A DNA stretch of 23,010 nucleotides from IMG/VR virus record IMGVR_UViG_3300007351_000058, positions 1-23,010 of that record; one strand, written 5' to 3'. The DNA is from a virus. The translations under genes were made by a program, and so were the position numbers. Below the pieces are notes generated by a model. It did no database searches, was not told the origin of the DNA, and worked only from the letters and a program-made list of their open reading frames with translations. This document shows, piece by piece, positions 1,266 to 16,165 of the stretch (within the stretch, counting starts at the first letter, position 1; every line of letters starts with the position of its first letter).

Positions 1266-2615
1266 TCAGCCGAACACGCCCGCGTTGCTCGACACGCTCT
1301 CAAGACGAACCAGAAACTGCGGCTGTTTCAAGAACATAGCGTAGAACACTTTCCAAGCGATGACGCGTAATTGGTTATGTGCGTCAGACTTGTCAGGCTC
1401 GGCGAGCACTTTCACCCTGACATCGTCGAGAACGACCTGCGCATAGGCACCCTTGCCGATGAAGTACGTCGGGTAGACCGTGATGCCCGTCGCGGGGGCG
1501 GCAGGTGGCACCTGCGCGAGACCGATGCCCGTCAAAGTCACGGTCTGGCCACCCTGAAGACGCGTCGCCTGGCCGAGATAAGTGCCGCTGAGCGGCCCCT
1601 GTGGAGACGTAGCCAGGTTGTTCGTGGTCGAGCCGCCAGGCGCGCTGATGTAGATGTTGTAAGTGAAGCCCGGTGCCGCAGGAAGGGTCACATTGATCGA
1701 GCCGTTCGGTCCCGTGACGGCGACACCAGACTCGGCCTGATGGATTTCGCTCTCGAACCGCTCCAAAGCGGTCGATTTGGTGACGCGCACCACGTAAGTA
1801 CCCGTCGCGAGGCTTCCCGCCGTACCTGCCGTAAGGCCGCCAAGAGCCGCACGGCCGGTCCAGGACTGGATCATGTTCGACTTGCAGAAGCGCACATGCT
1901 CCAGCTCGCCGATCTCGTCGTGGTAGATTTTCTTGATGTCCGAGTAGGACCACGCTGTCGTGACCGTCGCGTCCTCGGACAAATCCTGCGCCACGAAGGG
2001 ATGCAGAAGCCCGACATAATGGGACGTGATGTTATTCGCCGCAGCACGCGCGGCCTGAGCACGCGGGTCAATCCTCTGAAGAGTCTCTTCCGAGCCGTCA
2101 TACTCGGGAACGCCGATCGTCCGCATCATGGCCACGACACGCTTGATCTCGTGGCGATTGATGAAGGACGTGGCTGTCAAGGACGCTCGCGCGCCAACTG
2201 AACCGACGTAATTGACCTGGAGACCCGCAGCAAGCCCATTAAGCGTGTTGCGTTCTAGGAGCATTGCGATCTGGTAGCCAACCAGACGCTCCGCCTCGCG
2301 GACCACAGGGTGCTTGGTCAGGATCTCCATGACATCCGTCAAGATGACCTTGGAGCCCCACTGCTGAACGACAGCACTGACCTGAGAAATAGAGATATCT
2401 TCCTCGTCCGGCGGGACACCCTCCAGCATTGGCGCGTCAGGGAGGGGGAGGAAGTTGAAGCGGGTCATGGTATACGTGTTGCCCCGACCCTCGGGCATGT
2501 CGATTTTCTCGCCGAACGCGTAAGCGACGAGCTGCTTTTGCGTAAGCTCCAGAATCCTGTCCGCAATCAGGTTTTCAACGTCCGATTGCGTCACCGAGAA
2601 CGTATTGACCGCCAT
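1266..2615 (-). CDS. Major capsid protein, N4-gp56 family
   Basis: This 449-residue protein forms the icosahedral shell. It carries the segments I associate with the N4-gp56 capsid family: residues 33-60 (FGEKIDMPEGRGNTYTMTRF), 65-110 (the VPPDEEDISIS region, then QQWGSKVILTDVMEILTKHPVVREA), and near the end YPTYFIGKGAYAQVVLDDVRV and NQLRVIAWKVFYAMFL. Residues about 256-372 look like an insertion: they are Gly/Thr/Ser-rich and beta-patterned (TGTYVVRVTKSTALERFESE, PGFTYNIYISAPGGSTTNN), resembling an Ig or fibronectin-like surface domain. The ATG at 2615 follows a perfect AGGAGG. It sits directly after the scaffold gene, the usual order for procapsid assembly. Confidence 0.92.
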   Translation of the reverse strand: MAVNTFSVTQSDVENLIADRILELTQKQLVAYAFGEKIDMPEGRGNTYTMTRFNFLPLPDAPMLEGVPPDEEDISISQVSAVVQQWGSKVILTDVMEILTKHPVVREAERLVGYQIAMLLERNTLNGLAAGLQVNYVGSVGARASLTATSFINRHEIKRVVAMMRTIGVPEYDGSEETLQRIDPRAQAARAAANNITSHYVGLLHPFVAQDLSEDATVTTAWSYSDIKKIYHDEIGELEHVRFCKSNMIQSWTGRAALGGLTAGTAGSLATGTYVVRVTKSTALERFESEIHQAESGVAVTGPNGSINVTLPAAPGFTYNIYISAPGGSTTNNLATSPQGPLSGTYLGQATRLQGGQTVTLTGIGLAQVPPAAPATGITVYPTYFIGKGAYAQVVLDDVRVKVLAEPDKSDAHNQLRVIAWKVFYAMFLKQPQFLVRLESVSSNAGVFG

Positions 2616-4722: not shown

Positions 4723-5310
4723 TCACTTGCCCCCCAGGCTCCTATACGCGGCCCGCAAGAGCTTGGCGTATCTAGTCACCTGCCCTGCGCCATTATACCC
4801 GCGCGCGAAGCCTGCCCAGTCCTTCCGCCTCAGATCATCGTCCAGCCGGTTCACCTGGATGAACTTCACGAACGCACGGAGCTGCGGCGGCTCGCCCGTC
4901 AGGAAATTCTCGACCATGAACTTCGCCGAGCGGTAGCCCACTACCGCATAATTCTCCCCGAGGATCTGCGGGCCGCCCCAAGACGCCGCACGGAGCGCGG
5001 CTTCCTCATCGATCTTCATGGCCTCCAGGAGACGAGGATAGCTGTCCTGCGGGTAGCTGTTCCGCCAGCGGGCATAGGCCAGCCCCGCATCGATCGCACG
5101 GATAAGTTTAGCACGGCTGGTCTTCAGCTGGCGATAGAACACGTGCGGCTCGAACAGCATCGTCAGCCGCCCCTTACTGTCATAAGACCTGGCCCGGCTC
5201 TCAACCTTCCAGACCGCCTTGAGCGCGGCAAGCGGCACCTTCAAAGCATCAGCAGCGGCCTCGAAGTCCTCCGGCTTCAGGGCCTCGGCCTTCAAATTTT
5301 CGAGAACCAT
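4723..5310 (-). CDS. Endolysin, N-acetylmuramidase (DUF3380-type)
   Basis: This 195-residue enzyme is predicted to cleave the glycan backbone of peptidoglycan. Residues 12-60 match the muramidase core I associate with DUF3380/PF11860, including the likely catalytic Glu37 in KAVWKVESRAR, the MLFEPHVFYR strand (51-60), the ASWGGPQILGENY motif (109-121) and FARGYNGAG (168-176). There is no signal peptide, so release should depend on the holin. I chose ATG 5310 because GGAG lies eight bases upstream; an in-frame GTG at 5328 would add six residues. A separate peptidoglycan-binding domain is absent, so this is the single-domain form. Confidence 0.87.
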   Translation of the reverse strand: MVLENLKAEALKPEDFEAAADALKVPLAALKAVWKVESRARSYDSKGRLTMLFEPHVFYRQLKTSRAKLIRAIDAGLAYARWRNSYPQDSYPRLLEAMKIDEEAALRAASWGGPQILGENYAVVGYRSAKFMVENFLTGEPPQLRAFVKFIQVNRLDDDLRRKDWAGFARGYNGAGQVTRYAKLLRAAYRSLGGK

Positions 5311-5342
5311 TTGACCTGCTCCAGGCACGGGGCTATATCAGG

Positions 5343-6522: not shown

Positions 6523-8556
6523 CTACTGGTTCATAGCCGCGTTGCGCTGCGGACGCGGCTGTACGCCCGCTCCCTTGAGCTGGTCCTGCGGGATCATGCC
6601 CGCTGGCCGCTGCCCTCCTGGAGGGGCCTCTGGCTGGCCTCCAGGGCGAGGCTGCCCAGGCTGTCCAGGAATGCCTGCGCCTTGCGGCGGCGTGCCCGGC
6701 GAGCCGAGCATGCCTGCGATGTCCGCGTGCTTGCGCATCAGCTCCGTAGCCTGTGCCCCTGGCGGGAGGTTCATCAGGGACTCGAAGATGCGCGGAGCCA
6801 TGCGCGGACCGAACACCCCCAGGGTCATGGCATTGATCGCAGGCTCCAGGTTCAGCCTGTAGCCTGGATAGAGCGCGGGAGGGATGCCCCTGAGCACGTT
6901 CAGAGCCGCGATCTGGTTCTGAGCCTGCTGCGCGTTCCTCGTCGCCTCGACCCCATACCACGTAAATGTGGCCGTCTTGAAAATTAAATTGGGGGGCACC
7001 TTCACAAGTGCGCGATCAGCCCCGTTGGCCATCGAACTTTCAAGGAGTATCGCCTCCTGCCGGAACTGATGGTCCAGCTCCAGGAAATAAGTCAGGAGGC
7101 GCGTCAGCACCTGCTCTTCGAGCACGGCGACAGACGCCGCCGTCGTCAGGACCTCAACGTCCTGCTCCTGCGCCAGCTCCGCCTGGTTAGGTTTCTTAGC
7201 AGACGCCACCTGCGTCATCATGGACGGGTTGACGCTGAGGGTCTGCATGACCTGCGCACGGGCCAGCTCAATGATAGCCAGCCCGTCCTTCCACAACGGC
7301 GGGAACTGGGCAAACTGCGTGTCGGCTGGTGAAGTCTCCCATATGGCCCCCATCGTCAGGATCATAGCGTCGATGTTGGGGTTCTTCTGCGGGTCCGTCA
7401 TAGTGATCGGCACGAGGGCATACTGCGCGCTGTCCATGGAAATGTTCAGCGCGTCGTTGGCCAGCACCTGAAAGTCCACCGCGAGGTCCACAGGAGGCTT
7501 GCCCTTGAACACCCCCGCCTGCCGCCGGAGCGGAACCGAAATCAGCGGGCAGCGGTCAGACCAGTAAGGACAGCGCCGCACGGAGAGTATCTGCGTTTTG
7601 TCGGCCATGTACGCCCGGCATAGCCTGCGCTCGCCGTCGATGTAGAGATTCAGCCATATCTCCCACACGACCGCGTAGACCCCGCGCCCGTCCTTGCGCA
7701 CCCCTGCCGCCGCCAGCCGGTTAGACTCGTCGGGTATCTTATACTGGCTCGACTCATCGACCGTCATGGACCGCAAGAGCTGCCGCCCCGCCCGCTTCTC
7801 GATCTCACGGGTTGAGATTTTCTGCCTCACGTCCGCCCGCGTCCACCGGCGCACGATGCACACCGCCCCGCCCCTGGCGAGCGCGTCCTCGACGGAAGAG
7901 GCTGTCGCCGGGGTCACGATGACGTCGGCGTCGTGCAGGACCTCCACACGCGGCCCCTGGTCGATCACAAGCTCGTCCCGGATAATCTCGATGGACTCGC
8001 CAGGCAGGCCCGTCTCCATCGTCTCCCGGATGACCGTGTTGCGCTCAAGCCGCTCCCAATCGACATAGACGTTATACTGCCCCTCGATGTCACCGTGCCG
8101 GACAAGTGTCGGCACAACGTGCGTATGCATCTGCGCGCGGCGCACATAGTGCTCCAGCAGGGCCAGCAGCTCGAACGGCTGGCTCCCATCCTCCGTGATA
8201 CTATCGACGAACCTCTGCGCACGGGGGAATAGCTGATTGGTGAAGCGCGTCTGGCGCGCCTCAACCGCGTCGTGGACGAGAGGGACGAAATACTGGCTCC
8301 GGCCCGCGTAGTTCTGCAAGTGGTTCAGCCGTCCGTGATAGAGGTCCCAGTTGTCCTCGATGGACATGTTGCGGTCCCGGTGGTCCTCCAGCGCCTCGTC
8401 GATGTCCGCCCAGGCCGAGGCCAGCGCGTCGTGCACGCCTGCACGGCGGGTCAAGTCCTCGTCGCGGCTCATGAACTGCTCGGGCGTCTCCTCCGGCTCC
8501 GCGTCCATGACCCGGATGTCGTCCTCATACGGATCTGCGATAGGGTCGTCGGTCAA
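6523..8556 (-). CDS. Portal protein (head-tail connector)
   Basis: This 677-residue protein is the size of podovirus portals and directly follows the large terminase. The N-terminal 60 residues are acidic. The region about 65-120 (NWDLYHGRLNHLQNYAGRSQ, YFVPLVHDAVEARQTRFTNQ, LFPRAQRFV) is the typical start of a portal body. The middle is mixed alpha/beta and about 520-600 is helical (EQVLTRLLTYFLELDHQF). Residues 620-677 are a Pro/Gly/Gln-rich flexible tail. As dodecamer it should form the vertex channel for DNA entry and bind the terminase. The start is TTG at 8556, giving a TTGA overlap with the terminase stop, with GAGG nine bases upstream. Confidence 0.82.
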   Translation of the reverse strand: MTDDPIADPYEDDIRVMDAEPEETPEQFMSRDEDLTRRAGVHDALASAWADIDEALEDHRDRNMSIEDNWDLYHGRLNHLQNYAGRSQYFVPLVHDAVEARQTRFTNQLFPRAQRFVDSITEDGSQPFELLALLEHYVRRAQMHTHVVPTLVRHGDIEGQYNVYVDWERLERNTVIRETMETGLPGESIEIIRDELVIDQGPRVEVLHDADVIVTPATASSVEDALARGGAVCIVRRWTRADVRQKISTREIEKRAGRQLLRSMTVDESSQYKIPDESNRLAAAGVRKDGRGVYAVVWEIWLNLYIDGERRLCRAYMADKTQILSVRRCPYWSDRCPLISVPLRRQAGVFKGKPPVDLAVDFQVLANDALNISMDSAQYALVPITMTDPQKNPNIDAMILTMGAIWETSPADTQFAQFPPLWKDGLAIIELARAQVMQTLSVNPSMMTQVASAKKPNQAELAQEQDVEVLTTAASVAVLEEQVLTRLLTYFLELDHQFRQEAILLESSMANGADRALVKVPPNLIFKTATFTWYGVEATRNAQQAQNQIAALNVLRGIPPALYPGYRLNLEPAINAMTLGVFGPRMAPRIFESLMNLPPGAQATELMRKHADIAGMLGSPGTPPQGAGIPGQPGQPRPGGQPEAPPGGQRPAGMIPQDQLKGAGVQPRPQRNAAMNQ

Positions 8557-10493
8557 TTGAGTGTCCTCGGCAGCGCTGAGAGATACTTACGCCCGTCGGG
8601 GAGCTGCCGCAAGGCCGCGCTCGAGGAGGCCAGCGAGAGGGGCGCGTGCGGTGCCAGCATGGCCGAGCACAGAGCGCGGTCAATGAGCAGGAAGGGAGTC
8701 TTAGGCGGCGGCCGGAACGGGTCCAGCCGAGGCACCCCGCCCATCAGCGCGCGCACGGCCCATCGGGCGGGGGTATGGACCACTAGGGACAGGCGGGAGA
8801 GCCGCTCGCGCAGGTGTCCCTCCCCGTCCTGCGGGGAGAGGCCCATGGCGGGTCGCAAGCGGAGCGCGTTCACGGCGGGGCGCAGGCCCGTGGCGTCGAT
8901 GTCCGCGAAGTGATCAGGAGGGAGAATGCACGTGCGTACGTAAGGGGCCTCCAGCCTGCGCAGCAAGGGCTCCAGCAGCTCCTGCGGCGTACCGGGGGAG
9001 TAGGCATCGGCCTCGACGTGCAAGGCGTCTGACTGCGTCTGCACGAGCAGTGCCACGTAGACCTGGAGCCCGTCCGAAGCCGCCACGACATAGCGCAGCC
9101 CGTGCGCAGGGGGCGTAGCCGCCGTGACCACGCGAGCCGGGTCGTCCAGGTCGTACTTGGGAAGCGGGCGGCGCATGGCGTAGGCCAGCGCGTTCGGCAC
9201 GTCCTTGCGCCCCGTCGGGAACATGTCGAGCTGGTCATAGAGGTCCTGATGCGCGGCCTCGCCTCCCACGAACTCGACCAGGCGTGCGTTGAACGTATCC
9301 TGGAGCGCCTTGATGAAGTCGTCCTTGGCGAGCGCACGGGGGGCGGAATGGTAGGCAACCGGGATGGAGACGCCCGTCTCCTGCATCCGCTTCTGAACAG
9401 GTGCCTTAAGGAACTCCGCGAGCCCGTCCTGCTCGACGCCGATCTCAACGGGATCGTAGCGCTCGGCGACGCCGAACATGTGGTCGATCATCTGGTCCGG
9501 GAGCCAGAAATGCCCTCCCGACTCCCATATGACGAGCTTGCGGCCGATCCATGAGTAGACCACGAAGCCCGTATGCGCGGAAGTTTTGTTAGCCGTCCGG
9601 GCCGGGTCGTACATAGCGTACACGGGCTCGTAGGTGCGCACGCGGGCAGAAGCGGTGAAAGTCTCTCTGCGGAAGACGCGGTCGCTGTCTGCACGGGCTC
9701 TGACCAGGAACTCCTGCTCGAACTGGCGGGAGCGCCCGTGGCGGGCATACTCCAGGCGCGTAGCGTCGATCCACTCGAGGGGGTATCGCGAAGGCCACGC
9801 GGACTGGCGCACGGACTGGTCGTCAAGGTACTCGATCGGAACGGTCATAGTCTCCCAGTCTGGAGACTGAGCGAGGCGCACGGGTAGGGACTCCGGGTTG
9901 AGCGGGGTCGCGCACATGCGTATCTTCGGATTGGGCGTCAGGGCCGGTTTCAGAGTGGCGAAGAACCAGTTAGCGACCTTCTCCCGGCCTTCAGGGGTTG
10001 CTGCGTCCTCCTCGTCCTCCAGATCGTCGATGAAGACGAAATCCGGGCGGGCATCGAGGTGCTTCGTGCCACGGAGAGACTGGCCTTTACCGAGGCACTG
10101 AATGGCGACGTTATTCGGCAGCACGATCTTCGTGGCCTGCCACGTCCGGGTATCCTGCCGTCCGAACAGGCGCTCGATTAGCTCATTGGTCTGCAACTCG
10201 TGCTTCACGGCCTGGAGGCGCTCGATCGCACGGGGCTGGTTGTCCCCGATGATCAGCCCGTTCCTGTACATACGGAACAGCGCGCCGATGATCATGACTT
10301 CTTCCGCCTTTGTCGTCTTGGCGGAGCCACGGAAGAGCATTAGAAGCACATTTGGCCGGTCTGAGAAGAGCAGCTCCTCCATTTGCTTGTGAAACGGCGC
10401 GTCTTCTTGCGGGTGCCTATGCTTGAACAGCATCTCTACCGCACGGCGGGGGTCGCGCGCCAGCAGGTGCAGGATTTTTTCGCGGATGAGCAT
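8553..10493 (-). CDS. terL: Terminase large subunit
   Basis: This 646-residue protein is the motor and nuclease that packages DNA. The ATPase has a Walker A-like loop at 51-61 (LMLFRGSAKTT) and Walker B at 150-157 (PDFVFIDD), followed by the motif III-like CATPLNP (194-200). The RNase H-like nuclease has likely metal ligands Asp296 (MYDPART), Glu354 (GVEQDG) and Asp431 (KDVPNALAYA). About 200 extra residues follow and look like another folded domain. The frame is open to 10592, but that codon lies in the predicted promoter -35 element, so I chose ATG 10493; an in-frame GTG at 10508 is an alternative. The Shine-Dalgarno sequence is poor. Confidence 0.9.
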   Translation of the reverse strand: MLIREKILHLLARDPRRAVEMLFKHRHPQEDAPFHKQMEELLFSDRPNVLLMLFRGSAKTTKAEEVMIIGALFRMYRNGLIIGDNQPRAIERLQAVKHELQTNELIERLFGRQDTRTWQATKIVLPNNVAIQCLGKGQSLRGTKHLDARPDFVFIDDLEDEEDAATPEGREKVANWFFATLKPALTPNPKIRMCATPLNPESLPVRLAQSPDWETMTVPIEYLDDQSVRQSAWPSRYPLEWIDATRLEYARHGRSRQFEQEFLVRARADSDRVFRRETFTASARVRTYEPVYAMYDPARTANKTSAHTGFVVYSWIGRKLVIWESGGHFWLPDQMIDHMFGVAERYDPVEIGVEQDGLAEFLKAPVQKRMQETGVSIPVAYHSAPRALAKDDFIKALQDTFNARLVEFVGGEAAHQDLYDQLDMFPTGRKDVPNALAYAMRRPLPKYDLDDPARVVTAATPPAHGLRYVVAASDGLQVYVALLVQTQSDALHVEADAYSPGTPQELLEPLLRRLEAPYVRTCILPPDHFADIDATGLRPAVNALRLRPAMGLSPQDGEGHLRERLSRLSLVVHTPARWAVRALMGGVPRLDPFRPPPKTPFLLIDRALCSAMLAPHAPLSLASSSAALRQLPDGRKYLSALPRTLN

Positions 10494-10507
10494 GCTAGAG
10501 TGTAGCA

Positions 10508-10524
10508 CCAGACTTGAAATCTGG
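10508..10524. promoter_or_regulatory. 17-bp imperfect dyad in the terL leader
   Basis: CCAGACTTGAAATCTGG is a dyad centred on G10516 with seven of eight positions paired. It lies in the leader between the predicted leftward transcription start (about 10557) and the terminase start codon. It could be an operator or a short RNA hairpin controlling terL expression. The function is inferred. Confidence 0.4.
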
Positions 10525-10541
10525 CGAAAATTTTTTGAATA

Positions 10542-10556
10542 GAACAAACGGTGAAC
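10542..10556. promoter_or_regulatory. LexA-like operator 1 (GAAC-N7-GAAC)
   Basis: GAACAAACGGTGAAC fits GAAC-N7-GAAC, the reverse complement of GTTC-N7-GTTC, which is the established LexA box form of alphaproteobacteria. It sits at the predicted start site of the leftward late promoter, so a bound repressor would block transcription. It is part of a 24-bp repeat (10541-10564) that recurs at 10600-10623 with 21 of 24 identities. Confidence 0.6.
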
Positions 10557-10563
10557 TTGCAAA

Positions 10564-10592
10564 ATTATGCTAAAAATTTTCTGAGAATTCAA
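10564..10592 (-). promoter_or_regulatory. Leftward sigma70-type promoter for the late operon
   Basis: On the minus strand TTGAAT (10592-10587) and CATAAT (10569-10564) are separated by exactly 17 bases of AT-rich sequence. The start would be near 10557, giving a leader of about 64 bases before the chosen terminase ATG. LexA-like boxes flank both sides (10542-10556 and 10601-10615). Confidence 0.6.
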
Positions 10593-10600
10593 GTGTATGA

Positions 10601-10615
10601 GAACAAATAGTGAAC
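10601..10615. promoter_or_regulatory. LexA-like operator 2 (GAAC-N7-GAAC)
   Basis: GAACAAATAGTGAAC fits the same GAAC-N7-GAAC form and lies just upstream of the -35 element of the leftward promoter, 59 bp from box 1 and in the same orientation. The flanks also match (GTGAACTTG followed by AAAA), so the whole 24-bp unit looks duplicated. It could also control rightward early transcription, although I do not see a clear rightward promoter here. Confidence 0.6.
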
Positions 10616-10729
10616 TTGGAAAACTGGAGTGTAATTTGGGGGGAGAGCCAAGCGAATCATTCTCACCCCCGTCGGCGTGCTGCTACCCTGAGTTTCGCAA
10701 CAAGCTCCAAACTCCAGGCGCACGCGGCG

Positions 10730-10745
10730 ATCACAACTTTGTGAT
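10730..10745. promoter_or_regulatory. 16-bp perfect dyad in the early leader
   Basis: ATCACAA and TTGTGAT flank a central CT, giving a perfect 7-bp inverted repeat typical of a dimeric repressor or activator site. It lies about 70 bases before the first rightward gene. An imperfect GCGCA-GAA-TGTGC stem follows at about 10755. The remainder of 10616-10813 shows no convincing gene. Confidence 0.45.
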
Positions 10746-10813
10746 TAGACAAATGCGCAGAATGTGCGATTGTGGGGGCGCCGGTATTTTCCGGGGAACT
10801 AGAGGAGGAAGGA

Positions 10814-10951
10814 ATGATGACATTCTACTGCTACACCACCAGCCACCAGCGCATCGCGCTCTCAGGAGACATCGTGGGCCGGATCGTGCGGGGCACCGGA
10901 GAGGTAGACCTGATCCGCATAGCATGGTCCCTGTGGGACTACGCACGGTAG
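10814..10951 (+). CDS. 45-aa early protein, unknown
   Basis: This first rightward gene starts at ATG 10814, directly behind a near-perfect Shine-Dalgarno sequence (AGGAGGAAGGA). The 45-residue product begins MMTFYCYTTSHQRIALSGDI and ends IRIAWSLWDYAR. It has no membrane segment or recognisable motif. The strong ribosome-binding site and first position in the early operon suggest an abundantly made early protein, as often seen for host-takeover peptides, but that is inference. Confidence 0.65.
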   Translation: MMTFYCYTTSHQRIALSGDIVGRIVRGTGEVDLIRIAWSLWDYAR

Positions 10952-12133: not shown

Positions 12134-12171
12134 CAGCGCTCCTACAATCTTAGGTAGAAAGGAAACAAAAC

Positions 12172-12384
12172 GTGAACAAGAAGATGGCCGTCCACAAGCA
12201 GATCGAACTAATTATTGACGAAGTTCGTCATTGGTTAGGACGCGGCTCAGAATTCGAGCGGGAGTTGGACGCGCTCGATATTGAACTTACGTTATGTACG
12301 ATACCCGCAGCGCGTGATGTGCAGGCACGGGCGGAAGCAATCCGAGAAATCGCACATTTTGCACATTCACACGCACTCAGGTAG
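12172..12384 (+). CDS. 70-aa helical protein, unknown
   Basis: The likely start is GTG 12172, with AGAAAGGAAAC upstream. The protein begins MNKKMAVHKQIELIIDEVRH, with an acidic centre (GSEFERELDALDIELTLC) and a helical end (RAEAIREIAHFAHSHALR). It has no membrane segment or metal motif. It is the last gene before the AT-rich inverted-repeat region. No function can be assigned. Confidence 0.65.
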   Translation: MNKKMAVHKQIELIIDEVRHWLGRGSEFERELDALDIELTLCTIPAARDVQARAEAIREIAHFAHSHALR

Positions 12385-12412: not shown

Positions 12413-12451
12413 GGGGGGTTATAGGTACAAATCCTGGAACCTAAGCCCCCC
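12413..12451. repeat. Long G-rich hairpin in the gap before the two-HTH gene
   Basis: GGGGGGTT, a bulged A and TAGGT (12413-12426) pair with ACCTA, AG and CCCCCC (12439-12451), giving 13 pairs (one G-T) around a 12-base loop. It could form a strong RNA stem or a DNA cruciform. A pyrimidine-rich stretch and then alternating TA follow. It may act as a transcription barrier or an origin structure. Confidence 0.5.
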
Positions 12452-12458
12452 CTGTCTG

Positions 12459-12485
12459 TATATATATCTCGAAAAGATATATATA
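12459..12485. repeat. Perfect AT palindrome (candidate DNA-unwinding element)
   Basis: TATATATATCT (12459-12469), loop CGAAA and AGATATATATA (12475-12485) form an 11-bp perfect inverted repeat of nearly pure AT, in a GC-rich genome. Further TA-rich sequence follows to about 12498. Such sites melt or extrude easily and are common at replication origins. Imperfect repeats CTAGTAGACCCC and CTAGCTACCCC follow at about 12514-12546. Confidence 0.5.
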
Positions 12486-12564
12486 TAATAGATATATTCC
12501 ACCGCTCATGCTAACTAGTAGACCCCCTGCCCGTTTCTAGCTACCCCAATATAAAACCCATAGA

Positions 12565-14668: not shown

Positions 14669-15150
14669 TCGACATTGAGACCTTGGACACGGCCGTGATC
14701 CTTGAGATTGGCGTAGTCCGTTTCGACCCCGCTAAACCAGAGGCTAGCTGGGCGCGATACCAGTATTTCCCGATCCTCTCCCAGCGCGGCCGCACAATCG
14801 GGAAGCAGTCCAGCGATGCCCGTGATGCGCAGGCATCAGCGAAAAGAACGCATGTCCTGGCACGTGCCTGCGCCGAAATAGGCCGCCTATGGTGCGATGC
14901 TGGAGACGATCTTGAGATATGGGCTAAGCCGCCGTCGTTCGACCTGGAGATACTGTGGCACGCGGCCGAGGCAGAGAATATAATCCTGCCGAGCCGCCGG
15001 ACGTGGCGCGACGTGAGAACCTTGCTGGCGTGCGTTCCGCCTGGCCCGGAGCCTGCTAACGCCCTGCCGCACTCGGCCTTGCAGTACGCGCTCCACCAGG
15101 CGCGTACCGTGTCTGCTATTTTGAGGAGGCTGCATGGCCAGGCTGAGTAA
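14650..15150 (+). CDS. DEDDh exonuclease-like protein (Rv2179c type), last acidic residue replaced
   Basis: This 166-residue protein has the layout of the 3'-5' exoribonuclease family that includes Rv2179c (PF16473). It shows MIDIETLDT with Asp8 and Glu10, SFDLEIL with Asp98, RDVRTLL at 120-126 and HSALQYALHQA at 141-151. Those proteins normally end in His-x4-Asp; here position 146 is Tyr (codon TAC), one base from GAC, so the fourth metal ligand is missing. The product may be weak, inactive or a nucleic-acid binder. I chose ATG 14650; the frame is open upstream to 14581. It overlaps the next gene by 17 bases. Confidence 0.78.
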   Translation: MPTRFMIDIETLDTAVILEIGVVRFDPAKPEASWARYQYFPILSQRGRTIGKQSSDARDAQASAKRTHVLARACAEIGRLWCDAGDDLEIWAKPPSFDLEILWHAAEAENIILPSRRTWRDVRTLLACVPPGPEPANALPHSALQYALHQARTVSAILRRLHGQAE

Positions 15151-16165
15151 AGGGCTCCCTGTCCCCGAGGACATGCGGCCTATTGTCGAGCGGCTTGACA
15201 AGGACCTGAGGGTCGCCGCCCGTGCCATGAGCCGGGAGGAGGCGCGTATGCTTGTGGACACGCGCCTCCAGATGCAGAAGGACCGTATCCGCGCACGCGC
15301 GCGGCTGCGGGCTACGGGCGACTTGAAGGCCGCCCGCTCGCTTGAATGGCTCGGCAACCAGTTCGAGCTGCTGGAGCGGCGGGTCGACCTCTTGCTCGGC
15401 CTCTATGTCGAGCAGCACGAGATTGGCCCGTGGCTGAGCCGCGTGCGCGGTGTCGGCGACATCCTCGCGGCTGGCCTGATCACGGCGATCGACATCGAGA
15501 AATGCGAGACGGCAGGGGACATCTATGCCTTCGCGGGTGTCCCGTGCGTCGGCCAGGTATGGGAGAAGGGCAGGAGGCGGCCGTGGAACGCGGCGCTGCG
15601 CCGCTTGTGCTATAACATCGGCGAGTCGTTTGTGAACGTCTCGGGCAACCCTGACGCTTACTACGGACAGATCTACCGCGCGCGGAAGGAGTACGAGTGG
15701 AAGCGGAACCTGACGGGCGAGCTTGCGGATCGCGCACAGGAGCGGCTGAAGGTCTTTCGCGGCACCAATGAGAGCTGGCGCAAGTGGTATGAGGGTGCGT
15801 ATAGCGGTATAATCATAACCGCCACCCGTGCAGGCGATGAGTTTTTCCGCGCAGGCTTCGACGCGCAGCACCTGGACGGGCTCACCGAGGCCCTATTCCT
15901 GAAGGTCCGCTCGGCGGACAAGGAGGAGAAGAAGCTGGAGGGGGTTCTGCCCGAACCCTTATGGCGGCCCGGCGTGCCCATGCTCAGCCCGGACCATATC
16001 CACCGCCGTGCGAAATGGTTCGCGATCACGATCTTCCTGAGCCACCTCTTTACCGTCTGGTACCGAGTGCACTTCCAGAAGGAGCCGCCCAAGCCGTTTC
16101 CTGAGCGGGTGCTCGGCCATGTGCACATTCTGCCGCCGCCTGATTTCGCAGCCGAAGGAGCTTAA
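15134..16165 (+). CDS. Transposase_20 (IS110-type C-terminal)-like phage protein
   Basis: This 343-residue protein contains, at about 103-138, VRGVGDILAAGLITAIDIEK and then AGDIYAFAGVP, matching the helix-hairpin-helix start of the Transposase_20 domain of IS110/IS116 elements. The region after it (GRRRPWNAALRRLCYNIGES) also follows that domain. The N-terminal 100 residues are a charged helix, not the DEDD RuvC-like domain of IS110 transposases, and the expected catalytic Ser after the GxxP motif is not seen. The C-terminus has a distinct HIHRRAKWFAITIFLSHLFT segment. It is probably a DNA-binding phage protein sharing only this domain. ATG 15134 has a GAGGAGG-type Shine-Dalgarno sequence. Confidence 0.75.
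   Translation: MARLSKGLPVPEDMRPIVERLDKDLRVAARAMSREEARMLVDTRLQMQKDRIRARARLRATGDLKAARSLEWLGNQFELLERRVDLLLGLYVEQHEIGPWLSRVRGVGDILAAGLITAIDIEKCETAGDIYAFAGVPCVGQVWEKGRRRPWNAALRRLCYNIGESFVNVSGNPDAYYGQIYRARKEYEWKRNLTGELADRAQERLKVFRGTNESWRKWYEGAYSGIIITATRAGDEFFRAGFDAQHLDGLTEALFLKVRSADKEEKKLEGVLPEPLWRPGVPMLSPDHIHRRAKWFAITIFLSHLFTVWYRVHFQKEPPKPFPERVLGHVHILPPPDFAAEGA

Follow-up and report, generated by a model that had tools for sequence, protein, structure and literature searches.

Among the closest described systems is that of the tectivirus GIL01. At the late promoter P3 of this Bacillus phage, host LexA at tandem LexA boxes replaces a dedicated phage repressor; LexA acts there together with the phage protein gp7, and P3 also requires the activator gp6 (PMC6182141). 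A late promoter with LexA boxes is hence not new in itself. In Alphaproteobacteria, Caulobacter and others, the LexA operator is a direct repeat, GTTC-N7-GTTC, i.e., GAAC-N7-GAAC on the other strand (PMC12700426, PMC8565304), and promoters of unrelated alphaproteobacterial phages carry sites for the host master regulator CtrA in connection with lytic deferment (PMC9437464).

Here we describe a stretch of viral DNA of 23,010 nucleotides (positions 1 to 23,010 of IMG/VR record IMGVR_UViG_3300007351_000058; "the window") in which two boxes of the alphaproteobacterial type bracket a predicted promoter of the late genes. With GIL01 P3 the locus shares LexA-like boxes at a predicted late-gene promoter, but it belongs to a tailed phage, has direct-repeat boxes of alphaproteobacterial type and no known cofactor, and is known from its sequence alone. 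Whereas the CtrA phages couple CtrA to a cell-cycle signal, the window would couple a putative LexA to a damage signal. Its boxes resemble alphaproteobacterial LexA operators in their half-sites, 7-bp spacer, A-rich left interior, and a GTGAAC variant that recA and imuA promoters also have; unlike host operators, they sit in a phage, and the interior of box 1 (ACGG) is unusual.

The most economical reading, with P3 as precedent and in our judgment an even call, is that LexA represses the leftward promoter. Host LexA would occupy box 1, at the start site, as well as box 2, immediately upstream of the -35 element, and so repress the promoter for the terL, portal, lysis, and capsid genes, and RecA-driven cleavage of LexA upon DNA damage would relieve this repression, presumably with no further phage factor needed. 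If true, a tailed alphaproteobacterial phage leaves its packaging and lysis genes under the host's damage repressor, and the co-option of LexA known from GIL01 extends to direct-repeat LexA boxes.

Boxes and repeat tract

The original prediction had described two LexA-like boxes in the same orientation, the 24-bp repeats that contain them, and a TTGAAT-N17-CATAAT promoter between them that reads into terL, all of which we find at the same coordinates and on the same strands (Table 1). GTTC-N7-GTTC is exact in both boxes and has no other match on either strand of the 23-kb contig. This bare eight-letter motif is not significant by itself because 0.55 matches are expected in the window and 11 of 100 shuffles reach two or more. 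The window contains the fuller 15-mer GAACAAAYRGTGAAC twice without mismatch and four times when up to three mismatches are allowed (0.86 expected), a number that none of 100 shuffles reached. The third and weaker box has a score of 16.2, and no other site in the window scores above 8.8; the core of this third box, AACAAAACGTGAACAA, is found again in the gap between terL and the early genes of the relative G488 described below.

Table 1. Coordinates of the boxes, repeats, predicted promoter, and main genes in the window.
Feature	Position	Strand	Remarks
LexA-like box 1, GAACAAACGGTGAAC	10542-10556	+	lies over the putative transcription start for terL
LexA-like box 2, GAACAAATAGTGAAC	10601-10615	+	immediately upstream of -35
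24-nt direct repeat, copy 1	10541-10564	+	
24-nt direct repeat, copy 2	10600-10623	+	21/24 (88%) identical to copy 1, spacing 59
Third, weaker box, AAACAAAACGTGAAC	12163-12177	+	start of ORF 12172-12384
Sigma70-like promoter (predicted)	10564-10592	-	TTGAAT (10592-10587)-17-CATAAT (10569-10564); reads into terL
terL, terminase large subunit	8553-10493	-	first gene of leftward late operon; phrog_38, E 8.9e-53; ATG 10493
Portal protein	6523-8556	-	leftward operon; phrog_1216; 44% to relative L358
N-acetylmuramidase (endolysin)	4723-5328	-	PF11860, 1.7e-43
Major capsid protein	1266-2615	-	phrog_1357; 51% to L358
429-aa protein, possible phage regulator	12599-13888	+	weak CI/HTH match, E 5.8e-4 and 0.025

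A second repeat, AAAATTTTYTGA, lies ahead of each box (10527 and 10573, spacing 46), and the tract resembles a tandem duplication whose copies differ by an indel of 13 bp. The two boxes are therefore not independent chance events, and the duplication could simply have copied a functionless 15-mer that resembles a LexA site by chance, in line with the unremarkable count of the bare motif and with the lack of the bracketing pair in any relative. We consider this very unlikely, since two of the three mismatches between the repeat copies fall on box positions 8 and 9, the least constrained in LexA sites, so that within the box only free positions differ and all constrained ones are kept in both copies. 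Box scores above all controls and sites of the same orientation in the same gap of relatives (both below) likewise argue against chance.

Promoter and gene layout

The box region is the divergent junction of late and early genes. The genes for terL, portal, endolysin, and capsid run leftward, and small ORFs, the protein with the weak HTH match, an exonuclease, an IS110-like protein, a Cas4-like exonuclease, a DNA polymerase, and a helicase are encoded rightward. Homology to G488 begins near the ATG of terL. The promoter has a modest score (9/12; 0.3 expected by shuffling) and is the only sigma70-like one in 10401-10900. Transcription from it would start near 10557; relative to this position, box 1 spans about +1 to +16 and box 2 about -44 to -58. 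A LexA-like box thus overlaps a predicted lytic promoter, as at GIL01. A palindrome, ATCACAACTTTGTGAT, with 7-bp arms and a 2-bp centre that looks operator-like, lies at 10730-10745, right of the boxes and ahead of the first rightward gene.

LexA might also bind the boxes and yet act on the rightward early operon or on the whole divergent junction instead of the late promoter. The GAAC strand usually equals the gene strand at host SOS genes and the boxes of the window point to the rightward operon; the third site lies within that operon, and sites in relatives are far from terL on the early side of the gap. However, the scan of 10401-10900 gave no sigma70-like promoter reading rightward from the boxes, and box 1 lies over the putative start of the leftward one; we regard this alternative as unlikely.

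According to the original prediction, the late genes would respond to DNA damage without a CI-type repressor. This part is not supported because the genome is incomplete: the contig spans 23 kb while a relative has at least 44 kb, and the 429-aa protein, unassigned apart from its weak HTH match, is encoded in the window. Relatives of this protein were not found in IMG/VR at the sensitivity used, no HTH gene adjoins the boxes, and no integrase was recognised in the 23-kb window. The 214-bp gap before the 429-aa gene contains an AT-rich hairpin, TATATATATCT-AGATATATATATA (12440-12500), and an AT-rich inverted repeat resembling it lies in the gap between terL and the early genes of G488 (L369:3239-3283). 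An IS110/IS116-like transposase homologue is encoded at 15134-16165 within the replication module (phrog_4285, E 1.7e-28; weak Pfam Transposase_20); it had no match in 385 alphaproteobacterial genomes, an uninformative result.

Match to alphaproteobacterial LexA operators

Our recovery of 24 lexA boxes of the type GAAC[TC]AAA[CG]TAGAAC from 33 alphaproteobacterial lexA loci fixes the operator as GAAC-N7-GAAC, and sites of the form GAACAANNNGNGAAC occur in Alphaproteobacteria upstream of dnaE2, imuA, nrdJ, nrdA, comM/yifB, and lexA. Box 2 is one base off the dnaE2 operator GAACAAATAGGGAAC, and variants with GTGAAC, as in both boxes, are found upstream of what we take, from the starts of the encoded proteins, to be recA (two genomes), imuA, a Gp37/Gp68-like gene, and SRAP. 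Since the loose pattern GAACAANNNGNGAAC is overall not clearly commoner than its mirror image in 144 genomes, support comes only from its placement upstream of SOS genes.

A combined matrix built from sites at alphaproteobacterial lexA, recA, imuA, dnaE2, and nrd promoters (training range 13.7-24.0) scores box 1 at 19.9 and box 2 at 20.6, both inside the training range and above everything in 60 Markov controls (best site 17.4, best second site 14.1). Scores of 19.6 and 23.1, again inside the training range, are obtained with a matrix of SOS-gene sites, which favours the boxes of the window because its training sites were chosen with a pattern similar to them. A lexA-only matrix does not lift the boxes above background (12.0 and 9.1), since the GTG of the window's boxes is TAG in those of lexA. 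Taken together, we see about equal chances for and against these boxes being operators at which the LexA of an alphaproteobacterial host would repress the leftward terL promoter.

In 25 records of named phages, mostly with alphaproteobacterial hosts, such sites are few; the Caulobacter phage Kuura has one high-scoring box between genes. A search of the literature for the 15-mers of the boxes found none. Bacterial genomes gave 75 stretches with box pairs, mostly coding DNA or unrelated tandem repeats, plus four from Kiloniella, and these were set aside. A site pair of the GAACAATTCGGGAAC type, 45 bp apart, is conserved outside open frames in L174, L175, L189, L213, L222, and L224, which are loci of Rhodocyclales and other Betaproteobacteria.

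Host of the phage

The window is the entire contig C24 of a metagenome-assembled genome (G000, 78% complete) whose 16S we take to be that of Dehalococcoidia. The lexA gene of this bin adjoins ComEA/ComEC-like genes; seven lexA promoters of its order have an exact GAAC-N4-GTTC (mostly GAACANNTGTTC), and the bin's own lexA promoter has a half-matching site. Dehalococcoidia LexA was ruled out as binder of the boxes, which its GAAC-N4-GTTC operator does not fit. The muramidase is closest to those of Rhodobacter, Paracoccus, Sinorhizobium, and Aurantimonas phages (49-55%; other listed hits at most 39%), and cultured Dehalococcoidia are not known to have peptidoglycan. Given these observations and the mismatch of the bin's operator, the phage contig is likely misbinned and its host is probably alphaproteobacterial, an assignment that comes mainly from one protein, the muramidase. 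Repression of the late operon by host LexA, as originally proposed, is partly supported, in so far as the boxes match real operators and lie on the predicted terL promoter; on the other side are the different LexA operator of the bin, a host assigned through one lysis protein, and the mostly boxless junctions of relatives.

Conservation in relatives

The phage DNA collection held no nucleotide relative of the junction or the window, and an IMG/VR search with TerL alone found no relative either. PolA retrieved two distant loci from IMG/VR, and the major capsid protein retrieved the syntenic relative G488 (44 kb), which shares the divergent layout and is 51% (capsid), 42% (terL), and 37% (polA) identical to the window. 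Its gap between terL and the early genes has no exact box and contains TAACAAAACGTGAAC, which matches the box at 14 of 15 positions and is the top-scoring site in the examined parts of the contig.

For a broader sample, one TerL alignment (A1) was too diverse and another (A2) gave 80 loci. Conservation was assessed at a site score of at least 15 in 67 non-redundant loci that had been retrieved with TerL, irrespective of boxes. Sites are about tenfold denser upstream of terL (9 in 148 kb) than in terL and downstream DNA (2 in 336 kb), a mirrored matrix gave three sites, and eight of the nine upstream sites are oriented as in the window. Most are located some 1-1.7 kb upstream of terL, on the side of the gap that faces the early genes; in L415, a site overlaps a promoter reading toward terL. 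A site is present in 9 of the 67 relatives and absent from 58, and none has a bracketing pair. With upstream sites enriched and co-oriented yet confined to so few relatives, the box element appears to be real but patchy, and the bracketing pair peculiar to the window. The alignment of related phages that the original prediction had called for gave an ambiguous picture, with the G488 site, the upstream enrichment, and the orientation on one side and the low frequency of the site and the lack of the bracketing arrangement on the other.

Other box-bearing phage contigs

In IMG/VR, at least 119 stretches, 82 of them non-redundant, contain pairs of GAACAANNNGNGAAC sites spaced by 30-60 bp, compared to five for the mirrored pattern. 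In these paired-box loci, 240 of 375 boxes (64%) lie outside long ORFs, as against 29% of the DNA, and thus more than expected. Boxes are found upstream of the gene for 47 of 51 TerL genes across two unrelated TerL families, and the TerL proteins of the non-redundant loci form seven clusters at 40% identity; these counts are not independent because the loci were selected for their boxes and many of them are relatives of one another. That two unrelated terminase families go with the same motif suggests a host-encoded binder.

Boxes of the form GAACAAANNGTGAAC, paired or in 11-bp tandem, are seen in more than 100 uncultured-phage contigs, often with a terminase gene downstream (e.g., L143:3952-4075, L125:10819-10942, and L061:5029-5118). 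In many uncultured phages, terS/terL are preceded by arrays in which up to about 10 boxes follow one another with an 11-bp period. The array contigs L046-L164 share with the window direct repeats of GAACAAANNGTGAAC upstream of terL, partly in the same orientation; the L061-type pair lies 60 and 135 bp upstream of terL. Unlike the window, they often have four or more boxes, the 11-bp period, and mostly lower G+C, and TerL is the only gene that they share with it. Array phages prefer C at box position 9 and T at 11, from which typical host LexA sites differ. In L051, L053, L056, and L092, a perfect TTGACA-17-TATAAT promoter, identical in several contigs, follows about 90-200 bp downstream of the box array ahead of terS/terL, an arrangement that does not look like simple or known LexA regulation. 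L165, the sole IMG/VR match to the exact 24-nt-type motif, was rejected as a terS/terL overlap in coding DNA.

These arrays raise the alternative, possible if clearly short of even chances, that the repeats are an element of the phage lineage, i.e., operators read by a phage-encoded regulator, origin iterons, or cos/pac sites bound by terminase, with convergent or inherited likeness to LexA operators. Cos/pac sites and replication origins are often located at junctions of terL and early genes; the array consensus is unlike host LexA sites, the identity of the 24-nt repeats runs past the limits of the operator, and the 429-aa protein weakly matches a CI-like HTH. However, blastp found no regulator gene common to the window and the array phages, the motif goes with unrelated TerL/TerS types, no HTH gene is adjacent to the boxes, and this reading does not account for their match to a known host operator. 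Against repression of the late promoter by host LexA we count the patchy relatives and the distance of most of their sites from terL, the GAAC strand, the array consensus, the size and placement of the arrays, the scarcity of sites in named phages, the operator of the bin, the bias of the SOS-gene matrix, and the lexA-only matrix.

A broader reading, which we consider less likely than not, is that GAACAAANNGTGAAC repeats in pairs or 11-bp arrays serve as a widespread operator where terminase and early genes meet in many unrelated uncultured phages, with the window as a two-box version and one host factor, LexA or one not so far known to read this motif, gating the packaging genes. Whether late genes of many uncultured phages are under the control of host damage sensing could be addressed with the set of box-bearing contigs. 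Genes of the GP88 type (PF17338/phrog_1392) are found near box arrays (L130:5250-5906 and L152:131-901), and one is also present in the early operon of G488 (L369:5704-6294).
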